This document shows, in pieces, positions 4,058 to 26,990 of a stretch of DNA of 42,351 nucleotides. The DNA comes from Leifsonia williamsii (GTDB lineage Bacteria; Actinomycetota; Actinomycetes; Actinomycetales; Microbacteriaceae): NCBI RefSeq assembly GCF_030433685.1, contig NZ_JAROCF010000002.1, positions 1-42,351 on the forward strand, given 5' to 3'. Made by a program: the position numbers and the translations under genes. Within the stretch, counting starts at the first letter, position 1; each line of letters starts with the position of its first letter. The notes beneath the pieces are model-generated. The model did no database searches and had not been told where the DNA came from. It worked only from the letters and a program-made list of their open reading frames with translations.

Positions 4058-4324
4058 CTACTCGAGTCTGATGCTGCCCCCGTCACGGATGATGACCTCC
4101 GGGGTATCTGTCACCCTGAGTTGCACCTGCTGATTCGCCGACACGACCACGGCGCCTGCAGAGTCAGCGTCCGGGCCGGCCAGGAGGATACGACCCCCCG
4201 CGCCGTCCATCGTGAGCGGCCGCCACTGCCCGCTGATGAACGCCTCCACCGGCCCGTGATCATCAGGCAGACCGTTGAACGTCCAATGGAAGTACTCACG
4301 TCCAGCACGAGGCAGATTCGTCAT
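4058..4324 (-). CDS. hypothetical late protein, probable virion component (88 aa)
   Basis: A beta-rich 88-aa protein starting MTNLPRAGREYF with no membrane segment. Its middle reads like a small jelly-roll or Ig-like fold (AVVVSANQQVQLRVTD). The start overlaps the stop of the 440-aa repeat protein by ATGA, so the two are made together. It is likely a partner or decoration for that protein. No family is recognised. Confidence 0.65.
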   Translation of the reverse strand: MTNLPRAGREYFHWTFNGLPDDHGPVEAFISGQWRPLTMDGAGGRILLAGPDADSAGAVVVSANQQVQLRVTDTPEVIIRDGGSIRLE

Positions 4325-21296: not shown

Positions 21297-21923
21297 CTAG
21301 GAATCGGTCTTCTTGGTTTTGCGGTTGGCGAAGAGGTCTGCCCCCGCGCCGACGCCCTTGGCGGGCTCGTTGTTGCCGCGTCGCCCTTGGCCGAGGTCGA
21401 TGCCCTTCTTCTGAGCTGTCGCCTCGGTCGAGTTTGCATCGACCCACGCGTTGATCGCGTCGATGTCAGCAGCTCCGTCCTTGACGAACTGACTCCGGTT
21501 CAGGTCAAGCAGCGCGCTCGGGTCCGGGATCCGCCCGGTGAGCGCCCTAGCCAGGGCGTTGTTCACGCGCTCGGCTGCGAGCTGAGCGCGGATCTCCGCG
21601 CGGCCCTCTTCCCTGGCCGCGTCCAGAGCGTTCTGCTCCGCGGTCTGGGTCTTCTGCCGAAGCTCAGCGTTGTCCTTCTCGAGCTGGGCGATCTTCTCCG
21701 GAGTCCATTCACCGAAGGCCTTCACGCGGCCTTCGTGCTTGCGGGACTGGTGCAGGTGGTAGGCCGCCTGCTGCTCCGGCGTCATTTCCTTGACAGGAGT
21801 GTTCGCCGGGAAGCCGGTGTCGCCACCAGTGTTGGTGTCACCGCCTTCTCCACCCGCGTTCTCCTCGTCGGTGATGAAGCGCAGGCGTGGGTTTCGGATG
21901 AGGATGCCGCCTCGAGTGAACAT
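21297..21923 (-). CDS. scaffolding protein (208 aa)
   Basis: Start at the ATG of 21923. The central region is a long charged helix likely to form coiled coil (KIAQLEKDNAELRQKTQTAE, ARAALTGRIPDPSALLDL-type end at residues 135-160), with a flexible acidic N-terminus (GGEGGDTNTGGDTG) and a basic C-terminus (ANRKTKKTDS) suited to bind capsid protein. This is the standard build of siphovirus scaffolds. The ribosome site lies in a pair of CCCATGTCGGG elements also present before terS. Confidence 0.85.
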   Translation of the reverse strand: MFTRGGILIRNPRLRFITDEENAGGEGGDTNTGGDTGFPANTPVKEMTPEQQAAYHLHQSRKHEGRVKAFGEWTPEKIAQLEKDNAELRQKTQTAEQNALDAAREEGRAEIRAQLAAERVNNALARALTGRIPDPSALLDLNRSQFVKDGAADIDAINAWVDANSTEATAQKKGIDLGQGRRGNNEPAKGVGAGADLFANRKTKKTDS

Positions 21924-21934
21924 GCTGGTTGTCT

Positions 21935-21968
21935 CCCATGTCGGGTGTTTGGGTTCCCCATGTCGGGG
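21935..21968 (-). promoter_or_regulatory. paired CCCGACATGGG elements before scaffold gene
   Basis: On the minus strand CCCGACATGGG occurs twice, 22 bp apart; the distal copy extends to CCCC-GACAT-GGGG (21956-21968), a 4-bp stem with a 5-nt loop. The proximal copy runs into the ribosome site (GGGAGA) of the scaffold gene. An identical pair precedes terS. Likely a translational or transcriptional control element. Confidence 0.6.
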
Positions 21969-21999
21969 CTCACCACCCAGGAAGGGTGGAAGTTCGTGG

Positions 22000-22809
22000 T
22001 CAGACCTCGGACGGGCCGGTGAAGTGGTCCTTACGCCAGGCAAGGACAGGACCGAGTTCGCCGTGCTCGTGCGTAACGATCACGTTGAGATAGTCGCTGA
22101 TCGGACTACCGAGGCCGACGTCGCGGCCCCCGCTATCCGCCCGGCCAGCTTTCGCCTCTACCGCTGCGTGGGTTTGCTCGAGCAGTTCCGGGGCGATGAC
22201 CTGCTCGTCAGGGTCGCCGATGAAGCTCTTGATCCCGCAGTCGCATCCGGGGTGGATCGGCATCAGCTTGCTCTTGTGATACCGCTGGGTGGACGCGATC
22301 ACGCAGAGGGCGCAGTCCTCACGCCCGGTCAGGGTGCGCTGGTACAACTCGACACCGGTTCGTGACATCGCTTTGCGTGCCGAGTGGGTCTTCGCCAGTT
22401 GCAGACCGGAGGAGACCAGGTCGAGGAGCCGTTCGCCGCCCTTCGACGCAGCTGTTGTAAGGCTGTCGCCGTCACGGAGACCCGTATACAGCGTCGTGAA
22501 CGGCCGCTGGTACACCGTGGCCGCGTCCACACCACGGAGAGCCTCCGTGGACGCGTCAACGACGGCGCCACGGGTGATCGCTGTCCCCAGCTGCTCCGCC
22601 GCGACCCTCGACAGGTACGCGTCCGTCAGTTCGGCGACCCGCTTCTGCCCTGCCTCGACACGAGGCACGATCTCAGCGATCAGCCGCTCAGCGTCAGCAT
22701 CCCGATATGCCGAGAGCGCAGACCAGCGCCGGTACGCGTACGACATCACCTTGCTGCGCACGGCTGCGACTTGGGCGTCGTAGTTCAGGTCAAGCCGCGT
22801 TACCGCCAC
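22000..22809 (-). CDS. MuF-like minor capsid protein (269 aa)
   Basis: A head-morphogenesis-type protein: helical N-terminus (RWSALSAYRDADAERLIAEI, PRVEAGQKRVAELTDAYLSR) and C-terminal MuF-like core with Cys/His pattern (CALCVIASTQRYHKSK, then HPGCDCG), which may bind zinc. Such proteins bind portal and are packed in the procapsid. The gene overlaps the end of the portal gene by 20 bp. Confidence 0.8.
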   Translation of the reverse strand: MAVTRLDLNYDAQVAAVRSKVMSYAYRRWSALSAYRDADAERLIAEIVPRVEAGQKRVAELTDAYLSRVAAEQLGTAITRGAVVDASTEALRGVDAATVYQRPFTTLYTGLRDGDSLTTAASKGGERLLDLVSSGLQLAKTHSARKAMSRTGVELYQRTLTGREDCALCVIASTQRYHKSKLMPIHPGCDCGIKSFIGDPDEQVIAPELLEQTHAAVEAKAGRADSGGRDVGLGSPISDYLNVIVTHEHGELGPVLAWRKDHFTGPSEV

Positions 22810-24199
22810 CGGTCAACTCCTCCGTCAGCAGTGCCTCGTCAGAGGACTCGGCCTCCGCCTGGGCGACCTGCTCCGGAGTGAACTGCCAGATCTCCCTCAT
22901 GATGGTCCGCTTCGCGAGCGTCTTCGACGCTTGCGCCGAGGCGTTAGCCTTGTCCGTGACGGTGTACCGAGAAGCAGGCTTCCAGTCGATCGTGATCTTG
23001 GACTTGTTGGCCCGCTCTTCGTCGCCGGCCGTGAGGAATGCCAGGTACATGACGTCCACGAGAGCGGCCGTGCACCGGATCTGCTTGTCCTCCGTGGCGA
23101 AGATCAGGCCCTCACTGTTCGCCTGCGCACCAGCAGCAGACTCATTGTCCGGGGCGAACATCGCCAGCGGACGCCGCGTCACCGCAGCGAGCTCCCGAAT
23201 GTCGTCCTTGATCGCCGACTGGATGCCCTGCATGTCCGCCTGGGCGGTCTGGAACACCTTCGAGTTGTACGGCAGCTGAATCCACGACCCGGGATCTGTG
23301 GTGAGGACGTTGTCCGGGATCGAGTCGATCTCGTTGCCGTCCTCGTCGACCGCGTCTTCCACGTCGACCTGGATGACCATCTGCTTGAACGCCTGATAGG
23401 CGGCGATGACCATGCTGTTGTAGGTCTTGTGGTTGATTCGGTCCAAGACGTCCGTGTGGGGCTCGAATTCTCCGATTCCACGACGATTCCGGAACCGGAC
23501 CACCGGAACCACCGGATGGTTCAGCTCCTCACCATCAGCGCCGCCACGGTCCTCATCCCACACGTACGCTGAGGGGCTGAACGAGATCGACTTACCGGGT
23601 GCGGAGCGCTCCCGATATGCGACCCAGCGGCGCGCGTTCGACTGGGAACCATCCTCGAGGCGCTGCCCCGGGAGGAACAGGTAGATGTAGTCCCTTTTCT
23701 CATCCGCATCGTGGAAAACCTTGACCGCGGCCCGCACCTCGGACTGCCTGACCGGGTTGTGGAACGTGACCACCTGGCGAGGATCCTCACCCGTGATTAC
23801 GACCTCACCGTCCTCGTCCAACCCAACGATCATGTACGCGTCGGACAGGGCGAGCATGTTCTCCAGGACATCGGCAAACTCAACGTCCAGGCCGTTGTTC
23901 TTCCAGATCTGCCATGCGACATCATCGACCTGGTCGTCGGACACGGCGGTGCGGATCTCCCTCACCGCGCAACGCTCCCGAATCGACCCCACGATCAGCT
24001 CGGCGAAGTTCGTGCACGACTTCTTCTGGAACGACTTGAACGCATCCGACACGCCACTGCCGACCGGAACCGGGAGGGGCGGCTCACCATCGTGGTAGCC
24101 GGCCAGGCGCTGCAGCCGCGGGAGACGGGCGTTGAGCTTCTTCACGCCCTTGACGATCCACCACCCGGGAGAGTTGATCTCGGTGACATCGATGGCCAC
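22790..24199 (-). CDS. portal protein, SPP1 gp6-like (469 aa)
   Basis: GGGAGG precedes the ATG at 24199. The sequence carries typical portal elements: the N-terminal wing (SFQKKSCTNFAELIVGSIRE), central beta region (VRAAVKVFHDADEKRDYIYL, VPVVRFRNR), the helix with NHKTYNSMVIAAYQAFKQMV, and the RPLAMFAPDNESAAGAQANS segment near the tunnel. Length fits the SPP1 gp6 family, which forms the 12-mer DNA gate. It directly follows TerL. Confidence 0.9.
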   Translation of the reverse strand: MAIDVTEINSPGWWIVKGVKKLNARLPRLQRLAGYHDGEPPLPVPVGSGVSDAFKSFQKKSCTNFAELIVGSIRERCAVREIRTAVSDDQVDDVAWQIWKNNGLDVEFADVLENMLALSDAYMIVGLDEDGEVVITGEDPRQVVTFHNPVRQSEVRAAVKVFHDADEKRDYIYLFLPGQRLEDGSQSNARRWVAYRERSAPGKSISFSPSAYVWDEDRGGADGEELNHPVVPVVRFRNRRGIGEFEPHTDVLDRINHKTYNSMVIAAYQAFKQMVIQVDVEDAVDEDGNEIDSIPDNVLTTDPGSWIQLPYNSKVFQTAQADMQGIQSAIKDDIRELAAVTRRPLAMFAPDNESAAGAQANSEGLIFATEDKQIRCTAALVDVMYLAFLTAGDEERANKSKITIDWKPASRYTVTDKANASAQASKTLAKRTIMREIWQFTPEQVAQAEAESSDEALLTEELTGGGNAA

Positions 24200-24213
24200 T
24201 GCGACCTCCCTTC

Positions 24214-25875
24214 CTACTTGAGACGGCGGATCACCGCCTTGCGCTTCGCCTTAGGCTTCGCACCCGTACGTCGCGCGTCAGCACACGCCTTCCACGACAG
24301 GACCGCAGCCATGCCGGCGTCGAACTTGAGCTCCTGCTGGCCTTCCTGCTTCGCCATGACAAGAAGGGGCTTGCCCTCGTCGTCTTTCACGCGAAGTTCC
24401 TTCACGCCAGCGTTGCCGAGGTGTCGGATCAGGTCGTTGTGCGGGTCGAAGTCGCCATCCGGATTCTCGATGCCACCGAAGCGGACACTGCGGGTGTCGA
24501 TCGCTTCGGTGTACTCGCGGAGCGTGTACGCCATCCGGACGTACTTGTTCGTCCAGAACTCCTCAACCTGATCCGGCCACTTGGCCGACCAGGAACCCAT
24601 CGTTTCCGTCCAGTGGGGCGGGTCGCCGTACAGCTTCCACACCTCGAACCGCTCCATGGCGTCTTCGAGGGTCTGGGTGACCTCATCCTCGGGGACTTCC
24701 CAGTCCTCGTCGTCTTCCGGTCGCTCCCAAAGACCCAGGAGTTCCTGCACACCGGTCGCGATGTCCGTCGCCACGAGCCCTGTCGCGTCTCGGAAGCGTG
24801 CGCCGTCGAACCCGAGGCCAACAAACGCGCCCTTGGGGATCGTCTTCCCCGGGTCGGCGAGGTCCAGCAGCTTCTTGAAGTCGAAGAACTGCGACCCCGA
24901 CTTCCGCCACCGGTTCAACCAGACACGCTCGAGATACGCCTTGTCAGCCTTCGGGCGATCCCACTGCTTCGCGATCGACTCGAACTGGCCCGGACCATAC
25001 TCGCCAACGGGACCTGTCGCGTCCGCTATAGCGGCGACCCGCTGGTCGATAGTCGTGAGGTCGTCGTGCTCGTCGCCAGCCCACCGTGCAAAGAAGAACA
25101 GCGCCGGGTTCTCGATCTCGCCCCGGTCGATCATCTCCGCCTCAGCGCGCACATCCTCTTGGATGCTGCCCTGCCCGGGCTTCCCTGCTGTGGACGTGTA
25201 CAACGCCCACGGGTCTTCCAGTGGACGCTTCGTCAGGTTCGCGCTCATCGTCTCGTGCGCGTTCTTGGCCGACGGAAGATACAACCGGTGCGGTTCGTCG
25301 AAGTGCTGAAACGTCGTCAGGGCACCATCACGCGACCCCGGCGAGTTCGACACCGGAACAACCTGACCATCAGCACGGCCCCGCGCATCAAGCCGGAGGA
25401 TCCGCTCGAGCGAAGAATCGAAAAGGTCAGCGTCAGGGCCTTCCTCGACCACGTACTTCAGCACACCGAACGCCAGCTCGGAGACCTGCTCCTCCGTCAC
25501 CGCCATCATCGGGATGTACGGGAACGCCACCGGCCGGCCGACAGGATCACCGTCAGCGTCGAATCCATCGCACCGAACGGGCCCCTCGGGGTGCAGCTCG
25601 GCGAACGCTACCCAGGCAGCGAACTCGGTCTTCGCCATGCCCTTACGCCACTCGATCGCTCCACGCTGGAACCGGCGCCGTCCAGCAAGACGATGCCCCT
25701 GCGGATACACCTCGTACAGGCGGTACAGAGCAGCGAGCTTCTCGTCATCCAGTCGCGCCGGCTGCCCCGCAAGAGAACCGGGGCCGAACACGCACCGGTC
25801 AAGGATGAACTCCGCCACCGAAGGGCCAAGCGTCGGGTACGTCAGATCGAGCGGCGGAACAATCAGGACCGCCAT
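24214..25875 (-). CDS. terminase large subunit (553 aa)
   Basis: The packaging ATPase/nuclease. A Walker A-like motif of actinophage TerL is seen at residues 76-84 (WRKGMAKTE) and Walker B at 192-194 (FDE, in LTTFQHFDEPHRL). The C-terminal nuclease half begins about residue 345 with the acidic GLGFDGARFRDATGLVATDI, and a later acidic residue lies in WKLYGDPPHW. It follows terS by 6 bp without a strong ribosome site of its own, so translation is likely coupled. Confidence 0.92.
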   Translation of the reverse strand: MAVLIVPPLDLTYPTLGPSVAEFILDRCVFGPGSLAGQPARLDDEKLAALYRLYEVYPQGHRLAGRRRFQRGAIEWRKGMAKTEFAAWVAFAELHPEGPVRCDGFDADGDPVGRPVAFPYIPMMAVTEEQVSELAFGVLKYVVEEGPDADLFDSSLERILRLDARGRADGQVVPVSNSPGSRDGALTTFQHFDEPHRLYLPSAKNAHETMSANLTKRPLEDPWALYTSTAGKPGQGSIQEDVRAEAEMIDRGEIENPALFFFARWAGDEHDDLTTIDQRVAAIADATGPVGEYGPGQFESIAKQWDRPKADKAYLERVWLNRWRKSGSQFFDFKKLLDLADPGKTIPKGAFVGLGFDGARFRDATGLVATDIATGVQELLGLWERPEDDEDWEVPEDEVTQTLEDAMERFEVWKLYGDPPHWTETMGSWSAKWPDQVEEFWTNKYVRMAYTLREYTEAIDTRSVRFGGIENPDGDFDPHNDLIRHLGNAGVKELRVKDDEGKPLLVMAKQEGQQELKFDAGMAAVLSWKACADARRTGAKPKAKRKAVIRRLK

Positions 25876-25881
25876 GCCGGC

Positions 25882-26355
25882 CTACTGAGCCAGACGAAGG
25901 CGAGGATCATCGCCCTTCGGCTTCTTCGCAGCCCGACGCTTCTCCGTCCGCTCCTCAGCCTCATCAGCCGCAGCGAACTGGATCTTCAACCGGGCCCGAT
26001 CCTCCGGCGTAGCGCCGAACTTCGCAACCCGAAGCCGCAACTCATTCGCCACCGACGTGTTACCCGTCCAGAACTTCGCGTGGATCAGGGCAGTATCCAT
26101 GAGCTCCGACCAGTCGGTCTCCGTGAACTCATCCGACAGCGGCGAACTCGCCCACATGTCCCACCACTGACGCGTCCGCTCCGGCCACACGAACTGCTGC
26201 ATCACAACGTTGCCGTCGATCTCCACCGACACATCAAAGGTAGGCAGTTCAGGCTGCTCAGACGGTGCCGCCTCAATGATGCGCATCTGCGCGCCACCAC
26301 CGTTGCGACGCACCCGCCGAGACGGATCCTTCGGAGCAGGTCCACGACCAGCCAT
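25882..26355 (-). CDS. terminase small subunit-like protein (157 aa)
   Basis: The ATG at 26355 (MAGRGPAPKDPSRRVRRNGG) follows GGGAGG; this N-terminal phrase is common in actinophage small terminase proteins. The middle is helical (FVWPERTRQWWDMWASSPLS, DWSELMDTALIHAKFWTGN) and the C-terminus basic (KRRAAKKPKGDDPRLRLAQ). It should bind the packaging site and recruit TerL. The paired CCCATGTCGGG elements lie directly upstream. Confidence 0.82.
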   Translation of the reverse strand: MAGRGPAPKDPSRRVRRNGGGAQMRIIEAAPSEQPELPTFDVSVEIDGNVVMQQFVWPERTRQWWDMWASSPLSDEFTETDWSELMDTALIHAKFWTGNTSVANELRLRVAKFGATPEDRARLKIQFAAADEAEERTEKRRAAKKPKGDDPRLRLAQ

Positions 26356-26363
26356 GACTACCT

Positions 26364-26395
26364 CCCATGTCGGGAAAACGAGAGCCCATGTCGGG
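26364..26395 (-). promoter_or_regulatory. paired CCCGACATGGG elements before terS
   Basis: Two perfect copies (26364-26374 and 26385-26395), 21 bp apart, occupy the same position as the pair before the scaffold gene; the proximal copy merges with the terS ribosome site GGGAGG. They may be a regulator or RNA-binding site, or TerS recognition sites near cos. The rest of 26396-26452 shows nothing that I can name. Confidence 0.6.
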
Positions 26396-26452
26396 CAGGA
26401 ACCACAGGGCCCAGAAAGTCCCAGACCCGTACGGCTCCAAATCTGCAGCACC

Positions 26453-26875
26453 TCATCGCCCTGTCGACGGGCCCCGGGGGTGGGGGGTGGAGGCCTGGGT
26501 GCTTGTTCGTTGTGTTGTTGTTCGTGGTGTGCCCGTGAAGGCTCGCGTCCGGCCTCGTGCTGCTTCTTGTTTGGTCTTGGCTGCGTGGCAGGTGGTGCAG
26601 GCCCCCTGGCCGTTGCTGAGGGTGTAGGTGCCGCCTTCAGCCACGGGTGTGATGTGGTCTGCTTCGGTGGCTTTGCCTGTGCACTTCGGTCCGCGTATCT
26701 CGCAGCGTCCGCCGCATCGTTGGAGTACCGCTGCTCTCCACTCGCGGTGGAGTGGGGTGTTGGTGCGGTCTGTGCCGTATGCCCAGTTGATGGGGGTGTG
26801 TTCGTAGCAGTACCGCTGATTGGTGATGCGGTTCTCGCAGCCTGGGGTGGGGCATTTGCGGGGGGCCCGGGGCAT
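26453..26875 (-). CDS. HNH endonuclease beside terminase (140 aa)
   Basis: An HNH domain with zinc-type cysteines: CPTPGCENRITNQRYCYEH near the N-terminus, then the core CGGRCEIRGPKC, EADHITPVAEGG (residues about 70-82) and ACTTCHAAKT. HNH proteins next to terminase are known to take part in DNA cleavage during packaging of cos phages (for example HK97). The ATG at 26875 is preferred; an upstream frame start at 26929 would read through a 12-G tract. The C-terminus is a low-complexity basic tail (RTTTQRTSTQASTPHPRG). Confidence 0.82.
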   Translation of the reverse strand: MPRAPRKCPTPGCENRITNQRYCYEHTPINWAYGTDRTNTPLHREWRAAVLQRCGGRCEIRGPKCTGKATEADHITPVAEGGTYTLSNGQGACTTCHAAKTKQEAARGRTRAFTGTPRTTTQRTSTQASTPHPRGPSTGR

Positions 26876-26884
26876 TGTTTGATA

Positions 26885-26896
26885 CCCCCCCCCCCC
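26885..26896 (-). repeat. 12-base C/G homopolymer before HNH start
   Basis: Twelve consecutive C on the plus strand (G on the coding strand) end 9 nt before the HNH ATG, where the ribosome site should be. Tracts this long are prone to slippage and also to sequencing error. Confidence 0.75.
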
Positions 26897-26903
26897 GGGT
26901 GGT

Positions 26904-26990
26904 TTAGTCGTACCCCCGGGTGTCTTCACAGCAGAGGGTGGCGGCGAACGCGGATGGGTATTCGGCGCCGCAGTTCTCGCATGCGGTCAT
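26904..26990 (-). CDS. 28-aa Cys-rich mini-protein
   Basis: It begins MTACENCGAEYPSA and ends with a CC pair and ED, matching half of a zinc ribbon (CxxC ... CC). It lies 8 bp after the gene at 26999-27223. No strong ribosome site is seen, but GAACGGC precedes the ATG. Small size limits certainty; Cys-rich mini-proteins recur through this phage. Confidence 0.5.
   Translation of the reverse strand: MTACENCGAEYPSAFAATLCCEDTRGYD

Follow-up and report, generated by a model that had tools for sequence, protein, structure and literature searches.

The window analysed here, a 42,351-nucleotide stretch that is the whole second contig (NZ_JAROCF010000002.1) of a 3.9 Mb two-contig genome of Leifsonia williamsii, carries two pairs of small tandem hairpins, one at the ribosome site of the terminase small subunit gene (terS) and one at that of the head scaffold gene. 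The hairpins, their placement and their overlap with the ribosome site strongly support an element that acts as RNA, and the variation of its loops among related phages points to one phage-encoded, loop-reading factor that would act on both mRNAs. We see about an even chance that each pair is a translational operator, at which a phage protein, most probably free scaffold protein, would bind and keep the ribosome off the scaffold and TerS mRNAs.

The paired hairpins and their distribution

The 11-mer CCCATGTCGGG occurs exactly at 21935, 21957, 26364 and 26385, in two pairs with offsets of 22 and 21, whereas base composition predicts 0.054 exact copies on both strands. With up to two mismatches, the window contains 22 matches compared with 24.2 expected, so that only the exact copies stand out. 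The terS, terL, portal, MuF-like, scaffold, decoration and capsid genes all lie on the minus strand; the mRNA form of the 11-mer is therefore CCCGACAUGGG, found twice before terS (ATG at 26355-26353, minus strand) and twice before the scaffold gene (ATG at 21923-21921, minus strand). A preliminary description of this DNA had reported four perfect 11-mers in two pairs with these offsets and no other perfect copy, had placed the end of each pair at the ribosome site of terS or the scaffold gene, and had folded the distal scaffold copy as CCCC-GACAT-GGGG. All of this holds in the window: the Shine-Dalgarno sequences are GGGAGG and GGGAG, the 3′ arm of the proximal terS hairpin enters the former (26366-26361), and the distal terS copy folds as well. 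The two genes and their leaders are laid out as follows.

21297..21923, minus strand: scaffold protein gene (PHROG 4708, head scaffolding protein; also supported by phage records that annotate scaffolding proteins)
21935..21945, minus strand: proximal hairpin of the scaffold pair, CCC-GACAU-GGG (exact match and fold; Shine-Dalgarno GGGAG at 21937-21933)
21956..21968, minus strand: distal hairpin of the scaffold pair, CCCC-GACAU-GGGG (exact match and fold)
25882..26355, minus strand: terS, terminase small subunit (Pfam Terminase_7, PF25673; PHROG 226; PHROG 1897)
26363..26375, minus strand: proximal hairpin of the terS pair, UCCC-GACAU-GGGA (sequence and fold)
26384..26396, minus strand: distal hairpin of the terS pair, GCCC-GACAU-GGGC (exact match and fold; covariation of the homologous hairpin)

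The scaffold protein has no match in Pfam. Names for the terS family differ between sources, as PHROG 226 and a number of phage records give "minor tail protein", Pfam gives Terminase_7 and PHROG 1897 gives terminase small subunit.

Searches by motif recovered the exact pair in 43 IMG/VR stretches, mostly directly 5′ of a start codon; by eye, at least the matches in L006, L025 and L042 are exceptions. The proximal copy followed by AG and ATG was found in at least 120 stretches. Of 136 distinct leaders listed, many lack a distal hairpin and look like chance; in many others the distal copy is altered on both arms and still carries a GNCAN loop. When 77 tandem elements, a subset taken from 97 distinct ones, were sorted by downstream protein cluster, 48 preceded scaffold, 24 TerS and 5 other genes; among these five are an HNH gene and a gene with a weak match, just below the curated cut-off, to Terminase_4, another TerS family. 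Six matches were found in genome contigs, three of them before scaffold or TerS genes and three that look like chance or repeats.

Relatives were also sampled by protein, using TerS and scaffold alignments whose seeds came from loci that bear the element. From the 513, 243 and 100 relatives found by three such searches, the best 80 each were kept, giving 240 loci, of which 234 were new and 6 had previously been fetched by motif. Some protein-fetched loci are the same contigs as motif-fetched ones (e.g. L255/L003 and L193/L089), and the counts on the 234 loci include redundant loci and do not estimate how frequent the element is in phages at large. Open frames were preceded by 274 tandem CCG(N)NANGG elements, compared with 32 and 24 for two control patterns, and 263 of the 274 lay on the plus strand of the oriented loci. 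Scaffold genes followed 153 of them and TerS genes 67 (220 together). Most of the remaining 54 look like chance in coding sequence, and some look like scaffold leaders in another frame (L272, L310). Single-length patterns gave 225 pairs for CCG..A.GG, compared with 72, 62 and 29 when loop position 4 was C, G or T and with 9, 4 and 6 when loop position 1 was not G.

The pair was present before 115 of 158 scaffold genes in this sample (53/79 and 62/79) and at 52 of 2426 random positions (22/1181 and 30/1245); in related phages, the element is thus neither absent nor randomly placed, as would have spoken against the preliminary description, but precedes the same two genes. A strict rule for terS leaders (three-pair stems, start codon allowed inside) found the pair in 20 of 76 and missed the GAAAC and tetraloop GCAC forms.

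A non-redundant set (85% in both proteins) comprised 123 loci with both genes, among them the window and those of the named phages retrieved to that point that have both genes. Under a rule with a two-pair core, a tetraloop allowed and the start codon downstream, which missed the scaffold pair of phage VWB, a pair preceded terS in 56/123 and scaffold in 86/123 loci. A wider search interval added three terS pairs and one scaffold pair, and hairpins over the start codon added eight terS pairs. Both elements were found in 48 loci, the scaffold element only in 38, the TerS element only in 8 and neither in 29, so that 94 of the 123 carry an element before scaffold, terS or both; with start-codon hairpins counted, the numbers become 54, 32, 10 and 27.

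The element or a recognisable form of it is present in the named phages Cornie, VWB, vB_MoxS-R1, McProf, GAL1, prophiGD54-1, SF3 and xhp1. Smoothie and prophiGD34-2 have single or altered hairpins, and the leaders listed for ReT1v-2, Kuwabara, Brujita, Marvin, IdentityCrisis, TPA4, Lucky10, Aminay and phiGD17-1 show no clear form. A megablast search with 7001 bases of the window found no match in phage records.

RNA structure and loop classes

The element consists of two hairpins in tandem, each closed by a loop of five bases, G-N-N-A-N; the second lies over the Shine-Dalgarno sequence or, in part of the terS leaders, over the start codon. Because the search pattern prescribes the inner two pairs as well as G and A in the loop, evidence for folding comes only from pairs 3 and 4. 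Of 122 distinct distal hairpins, 110 form pair 3 (shuffles, at most 88) and 104 form pair 4 (shuffles, at most 73). An alignment of 100 of them revealed compensatory change: 93.8% of cells are paired compared with 76.5% in shuffles, doubly changed cells number 58 compared with 17.6, and the covariation score is 0.377, compared with 0.083 in shuffles and no more than 0.069 in slid controls. Pair 4 is GC in 38 of these hairpins, CG in 21, AU in 11, GU in 6, UA in 5, UG in 4 and other in 15. G-U combinations at this pair are not depleted (14 compared with 15.8 by chance), whereas other mismatches are (18 compared with 68.8), which is not what a DNA palindrome would give.

The hairpins also reach the ribosome site, as translational operators do. 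The proximal hairpin has three pairs, and in 111 of 130 elements its 3′ arm overlaps the Shine-Dalgarno core. The start codon lies 5-16 nt past the inner GG of the proximal stem, and 8-12 nt past it in 112 of the 130, in a count that accepted only starts 4-21 nt away. In 8 of the 123 loci, Cornie's relatives included, the second terS hairpin covers the start codon, for example as GCC-GTTAT-GGC with the ATG inside; two of the eight, L288 and L404, are less sure. Loci with the start codon inside such a hairpin (GCC-GNNAT-GGC) are L184, L188, L206, L218, L220 and L407. A loop-agnostic scan of 138 non-redundant scaffold leaders placed five-base loops furthest above shuffles (798 compared with 594), with GNNAN pentaloops on top: GACAT occurred 36 times compared with 0.5 in shuffles and GAAAC 25 times compared with 0.78, and GACAC, GTCAT, GACAG, GTTAT and GATAT were also among the top loops.

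According to the third loop base, the elements fall into classes C, A and U, plus a four-base loop, GCAC; this last variant was seen as CCC-GCAC-GGG in both leaders of L200, L215 and L226. The third base is the same within a pair in 122 of 127 cases (shuffle maximum 79). The terS and scaffold leaders of a locus share their class in 46 of 48 loci, compared with a mean of 20.8 and a maximum of 32 in shuffles that ignore kinship, and in 52 of 54 when start-codon hairpins are counted (mean 20.2, maximum 32). Five protein trees require 11 to 17 changes of class, and terS and scaffold leaders therefore seem to have repeatedly switched in concert. Phage vB_MoxS-R1 of Microbacterium has GGAAC/GAAAC loops and two Microbacterium genomes have GACAT pairs; different classes in phages of one host genus argue that the reader is phage-coded.

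Candidate readers and alternative explanations

Several comparisons point to the scaffold protein as the best-fitting reader of the loops. L220 and Cornie are 81% identical in TerS, 91% in TerL, 79% in portal, 74% in decoration and 77% in capsid protein, but only 41% in scaffold, and their loops differ in both the scaffold leader (GTCAT/GACAG compared with GTTAT/GATAT) and the TerS leader (GTCAG/GACAT compared with GTTAT/GTTAT). Among 39 pairs of loci with conserved TerL and portal, the 37 of the same class have scaffold scores of 0.37-0.98, and the two of different class have the two lowest, 0.17 and 0.32. Protein pairs at least 60% identical differ in class in 117 of 223 cases for TerS, 78/324 for TerL, 21/168 for portal, 1/40 for MuF and 1/116 for scaffold, proteins that evolve at different rates. 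In these identity and score comparisons, L259 was set by hand to class C, as its scaffold call, GATAG, looked spurious. The scaffold pair is furthermore the more general one, given 38 scaffold-only and 8 TerS-only loci among the 123 (32 and 10 with start-codon hairpins).

We infer that a protein binds the hairpins, that the binder is the scaffold protein and that binding represses. Free scaffold protein would bind both tandem hairpins in the scaffold and terS leaders, and its binding at the second would cover the Shine-Dalgarno sequence or the start codon and keep the ribosome off. Synthesis of scaffold and TerS would then fall as unassembled scaffold builds up and rise once scaffold is used in procapsids. 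The regulon would probably amount to scaffold autoregulation extended to terS. Scaffold and TerS are both assembly proteins that are not kept in the siphophage virion.

A number of observations weigh against scaffold-read RNA operators. On the side of the element, neither pair was found in 29 of the 123 loci that have both genes (27 with start-codon hairpins); the proximal hairpin shows little covariation; a base other than A at loop position 4 is not absent (CCG..C.GG 72 and CCG..G.GG 62, compared with 225); and loop lengths of 3-7 all exceed shuffles in the 138 leaders, if five does so most. Folding energies of the leaders are ordinary (in short stretches z is −0.43 and +0.61, in longer ones −1.16 and −1.76), and the minimum-energy folds of the two short stretches lack the proximal hairpin or both hairpins. 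On the side of the reader, both class-different pairs among the 39 involve L220 and are essentially one event. L220 and Cornie are also only 57, 69 and 42% identical in three downstream connector proteins, and L220 and L218 diverge in decoration (46%) and capsid protein (40%) too. Scaffold proteins evolve fast, and the class differs about as rarely among similar MuF proteins as among similar scaffolds. Trees of 112 loci require 12 class changes for scaffold, 11 for portal, 14 for MuF, 15 for TerL and 17 for TerS, so that linkage does not single out scaffold; an earlier tree set of 94 loci gave 18 changes on TerS and 14 on scaffold, trees of the 46 loci with all six proteins gave 4 to 6 each, and presence of the element clusters weakly on any tree. 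Nearest neighbours agree in class in 71/94 cases for TerS, 74/94 for scaffold, 70/94 for TerL, 76/94 for portal and 66/86 for MuF, and neither trees nor neighbours separate scaffold from portal. The predicted scaffold structure (mean pLDDT 80.4) consists mostly of helices, in which no RNA-binding domain or fold was recognised, and a Foldseek search with it gave no significant match; the same search with the TerS model (81.6) gave none either. By sequence, neither protein has a related chain in the PDB up to E 0.1.

The preliminary description had proposed RNA operators for a capsid or terminase protein, and also promoter sites or TerS recognition sites. As an RNA element, the operator gained strong support from compensatory change, from tolerance of G-U and from its placement before the same two genes, where it covers part of the Shine-Dalgarno sequence or the start codon, whereas capsid protein and TerS lost ground as binders, being 77-81% identical between loci whose loops changed. 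The capsid protein was rejected as reader: it is 77% identical between L220 and Cornie, and a profile of the window's capsid protein finds a relative in only 52 of the 123 loci. No such relative was found in the A-class (GAAAC-loop) loci L214, L228, L296 and L301, and in L228 and L301 another capsid-like frame directly follows scaffold.

TerS, repressing itself and scaffold through the same RNA operators, is a distinctly unlikely reader in our estimate. TerS proteins are oligomeric nucleic-acid binders, and TerS is one of the two targets; its N-terminus is basic and arginine-rich, with a conserved R-x-R-R-N, and just one locus (L115) was found that has the scaffold element, TerL and room upstream yet no Terminase_7 match, while L152 has a weak Terminase_4 match in its place. 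The basic N-terminus is, however, also present where hairpins were not detected, loci lack the terS pair more often than the scaffold pair, similar TerS proteins often accompany different classes (the 117 of 223 above, subject to the same differences in evolutionary rate), and at 81% TerS identity even the TerS-leader loops of L220 and Cornie differ. A different phage protein, such as MuF, a connector or a distant regulator, or a loop-pairing small RNA is likewise an unlikely reader of the operators. Class concordance requires merely some phage-coded trans factor, and the loci compared span 6-7 kb around the genes, so that distant genes lie outside the comparison; yet the enrichment of G1 and A4 with variation at loop positions 2, 3 and 5, seen in the loop-agnostic scan as well, fits recognition by a protein better than loop-loop pairing.

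Two further explanations give the pairs a role other than translational control. Tandem hairpins at the start of the packaging and capsid blocks resemble the layout of HK022 put sites and could act on transcription elongation or mRNA processing, as in put-like antitermination or as nuclease sites. P22 boxB shares the loop type, with GACAA in the passages of one report (PMC12550061). Antitermination needs neither the regular distance to the start codon nor the Shine-Dalgarno overlap, nor does it need the start codon to be covered, as it is by some terS hairpins, and we regard this explanation as very unlikely. Paired DNA operators or promoter elements bound by a DNA-binding protein appear extremely improbable: the 11-mer is a short imperfect palindrome and pairs are typical of operators, but the changes are compensatory with G-U tolerated, the orientation to the gene is single (263/274), and the core-to-core offset ranges from 14 to 34 and is only weakly phased with the helix (vector strength 0.26 at 10.5). 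Variable spacing and RNA-type covariation likewise disfavour the promoter sites suggested before, and a TerS recognition site at the terS pair cannot account for the scaffold pair.

Related systems, surroundings and implications

No description of the element appeared in the literature searched, as result listings and passages; the exact string turns up in 7 papers, which, judging by title, seem to concern other subjects. In operators of the MS2 type, a hairpin lies at the ribosome site and the coat protein, an assembly protein, represses translation; these belong to RNA phages, have another hairpin and target the replicase gene. Unassembled scaffolding protein of P22 lowers its own synthesis post-transcriptionally, a point not confirmed in the literature searched, and we know of no operator of the paired-hairpin kind in P22, which belongs to a different phage group. 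BoxB works in antitermination together with boxA, and to our knowledge does not overlap Shine-Dalgarno sequences.

The T4/RB69 operator of gp43, the DNA polymerase, is a leader hairpin whose loop bases are recognised and at which the product represses its own translation, as described in PMC3014915. It shares with the present element a tailed-phage leader hairpin that reaches the ribosome site and whose loop bases vary among relatives, but it is a single hairpin before a replication gene with UAAC and UAAA loops (CAAC from selection), whereas here two hairpins precede each of two head-assembly genes. Lambdoid boxB, in passages of PMC12550061, likewise has a phage-specific GNNAN five-base loop, and in P22 the N peptide contacts the third base, C, which loops out; the third base is the class-defining position here. 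Its last loop base is A (P22 GACAA), while here it is mostly C or U, so that, judged by this base, most of the present loops lack the final A of a GNRA-like pentaloop. SAS and ESAS of Cluster K and EF phages are conserved repeats at ribosome sites described as of unknown function in excerpts of PMC3203893 and PMC7302621; in Cluster K, SAS stands before non-structural genes, with a separate inverted repeat that the authors consider more likely to be a DNA-protein site. SAS is a 13 bp sequence of the GGGATAGGAGCCC type without sequence or loop in common with the paired hairpins, and comparison of the sequences, with no dedicated SAS search, placed neither consensus given there, GGGATAGGAGCCC or GGGAAAGGACCCC, at the window's leaders. 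T4 gp43 is the nearest working parallel, P22 boxB the nearest loop and SAS/ESAS the nearest actinophage phenomenon, and the element itself occurs in none of them.

Two neighbouring features in the window complete the picture of the locus.

21973..21989, minus strand: stem-loop CCACCC-UUCCU-GGGUGG, just upstream of the scaffold pair (sequence and fold)
26453-26929, minus strand: gene for an HNH endonuclease, next to terS on its upstream side

Stem-loops resembling that at 21973..21989 precede the pair in a number of relatives, as seen by eye and uncounted. In L032, L066, L107 and others, the same loop tops longer terminator-like hairpins upstream of the scaffold pair (GGCCGGAGCCGACATGGCGTCGGCC in L066), which are perhaps a third site. 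L332 has, at 4227, a tandem element before a 615-codon frame with a scaffold-like start, possibly a scaffold fused to another head protein. In the Streptomyces phage VWB (L169, 7257), a GACAC pair precedes a small frame that lies upstream of gp31, at a good distance ahead of terS. A likely cos element, TACGGGTCTGG or a close form, lies at 26421-26431 (minus strand); Cornie, Brujita and others have it near their genome ends, again upstream of terS. A cos or pac role was rejected for the scaffold pair, and the cos-like sequence is separate from the terS pair downstream of it.

Positions 1-50 of the window are the first 50 bases of the chromosome contig and, joined to that contig's end, complete a tRNA-Phe(gaa) gene, so that the window is probably the complete genome of a temperate phage, with the cut at the attachment site. 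Rfam covariance models (E up to 1) matched the window solely at the partial tRNA at its edge.

The balance that tailed phages strike between scaffold, capsid and terminase is a long-standing question, and we know of no RNA target found for post-transcriptional scaffold control of the P22 type. The element is conserved RNA that is easy to mutate and carries its own specificity code. It can help in assigning the start codons of terS and scaffold genes and makes assembly-coupled translation directly testable, for example with Cornie in Mycobacterium smegmatis or VWB in Streptomyces venezuelae. Somewhat short of an even chance, in our judgement, the pairs may represent a widespread, fast-diverging regulon of actinobacterial siphophages, in which scaffold would sense assembly and, through paired pentaloops that co-evolve with it, throttle translation of scaffold and TerS, thereby coupling capsid building to packaging. 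If so, the different loop classes would provide orthogonal RNA-protein pairs of natural origin.

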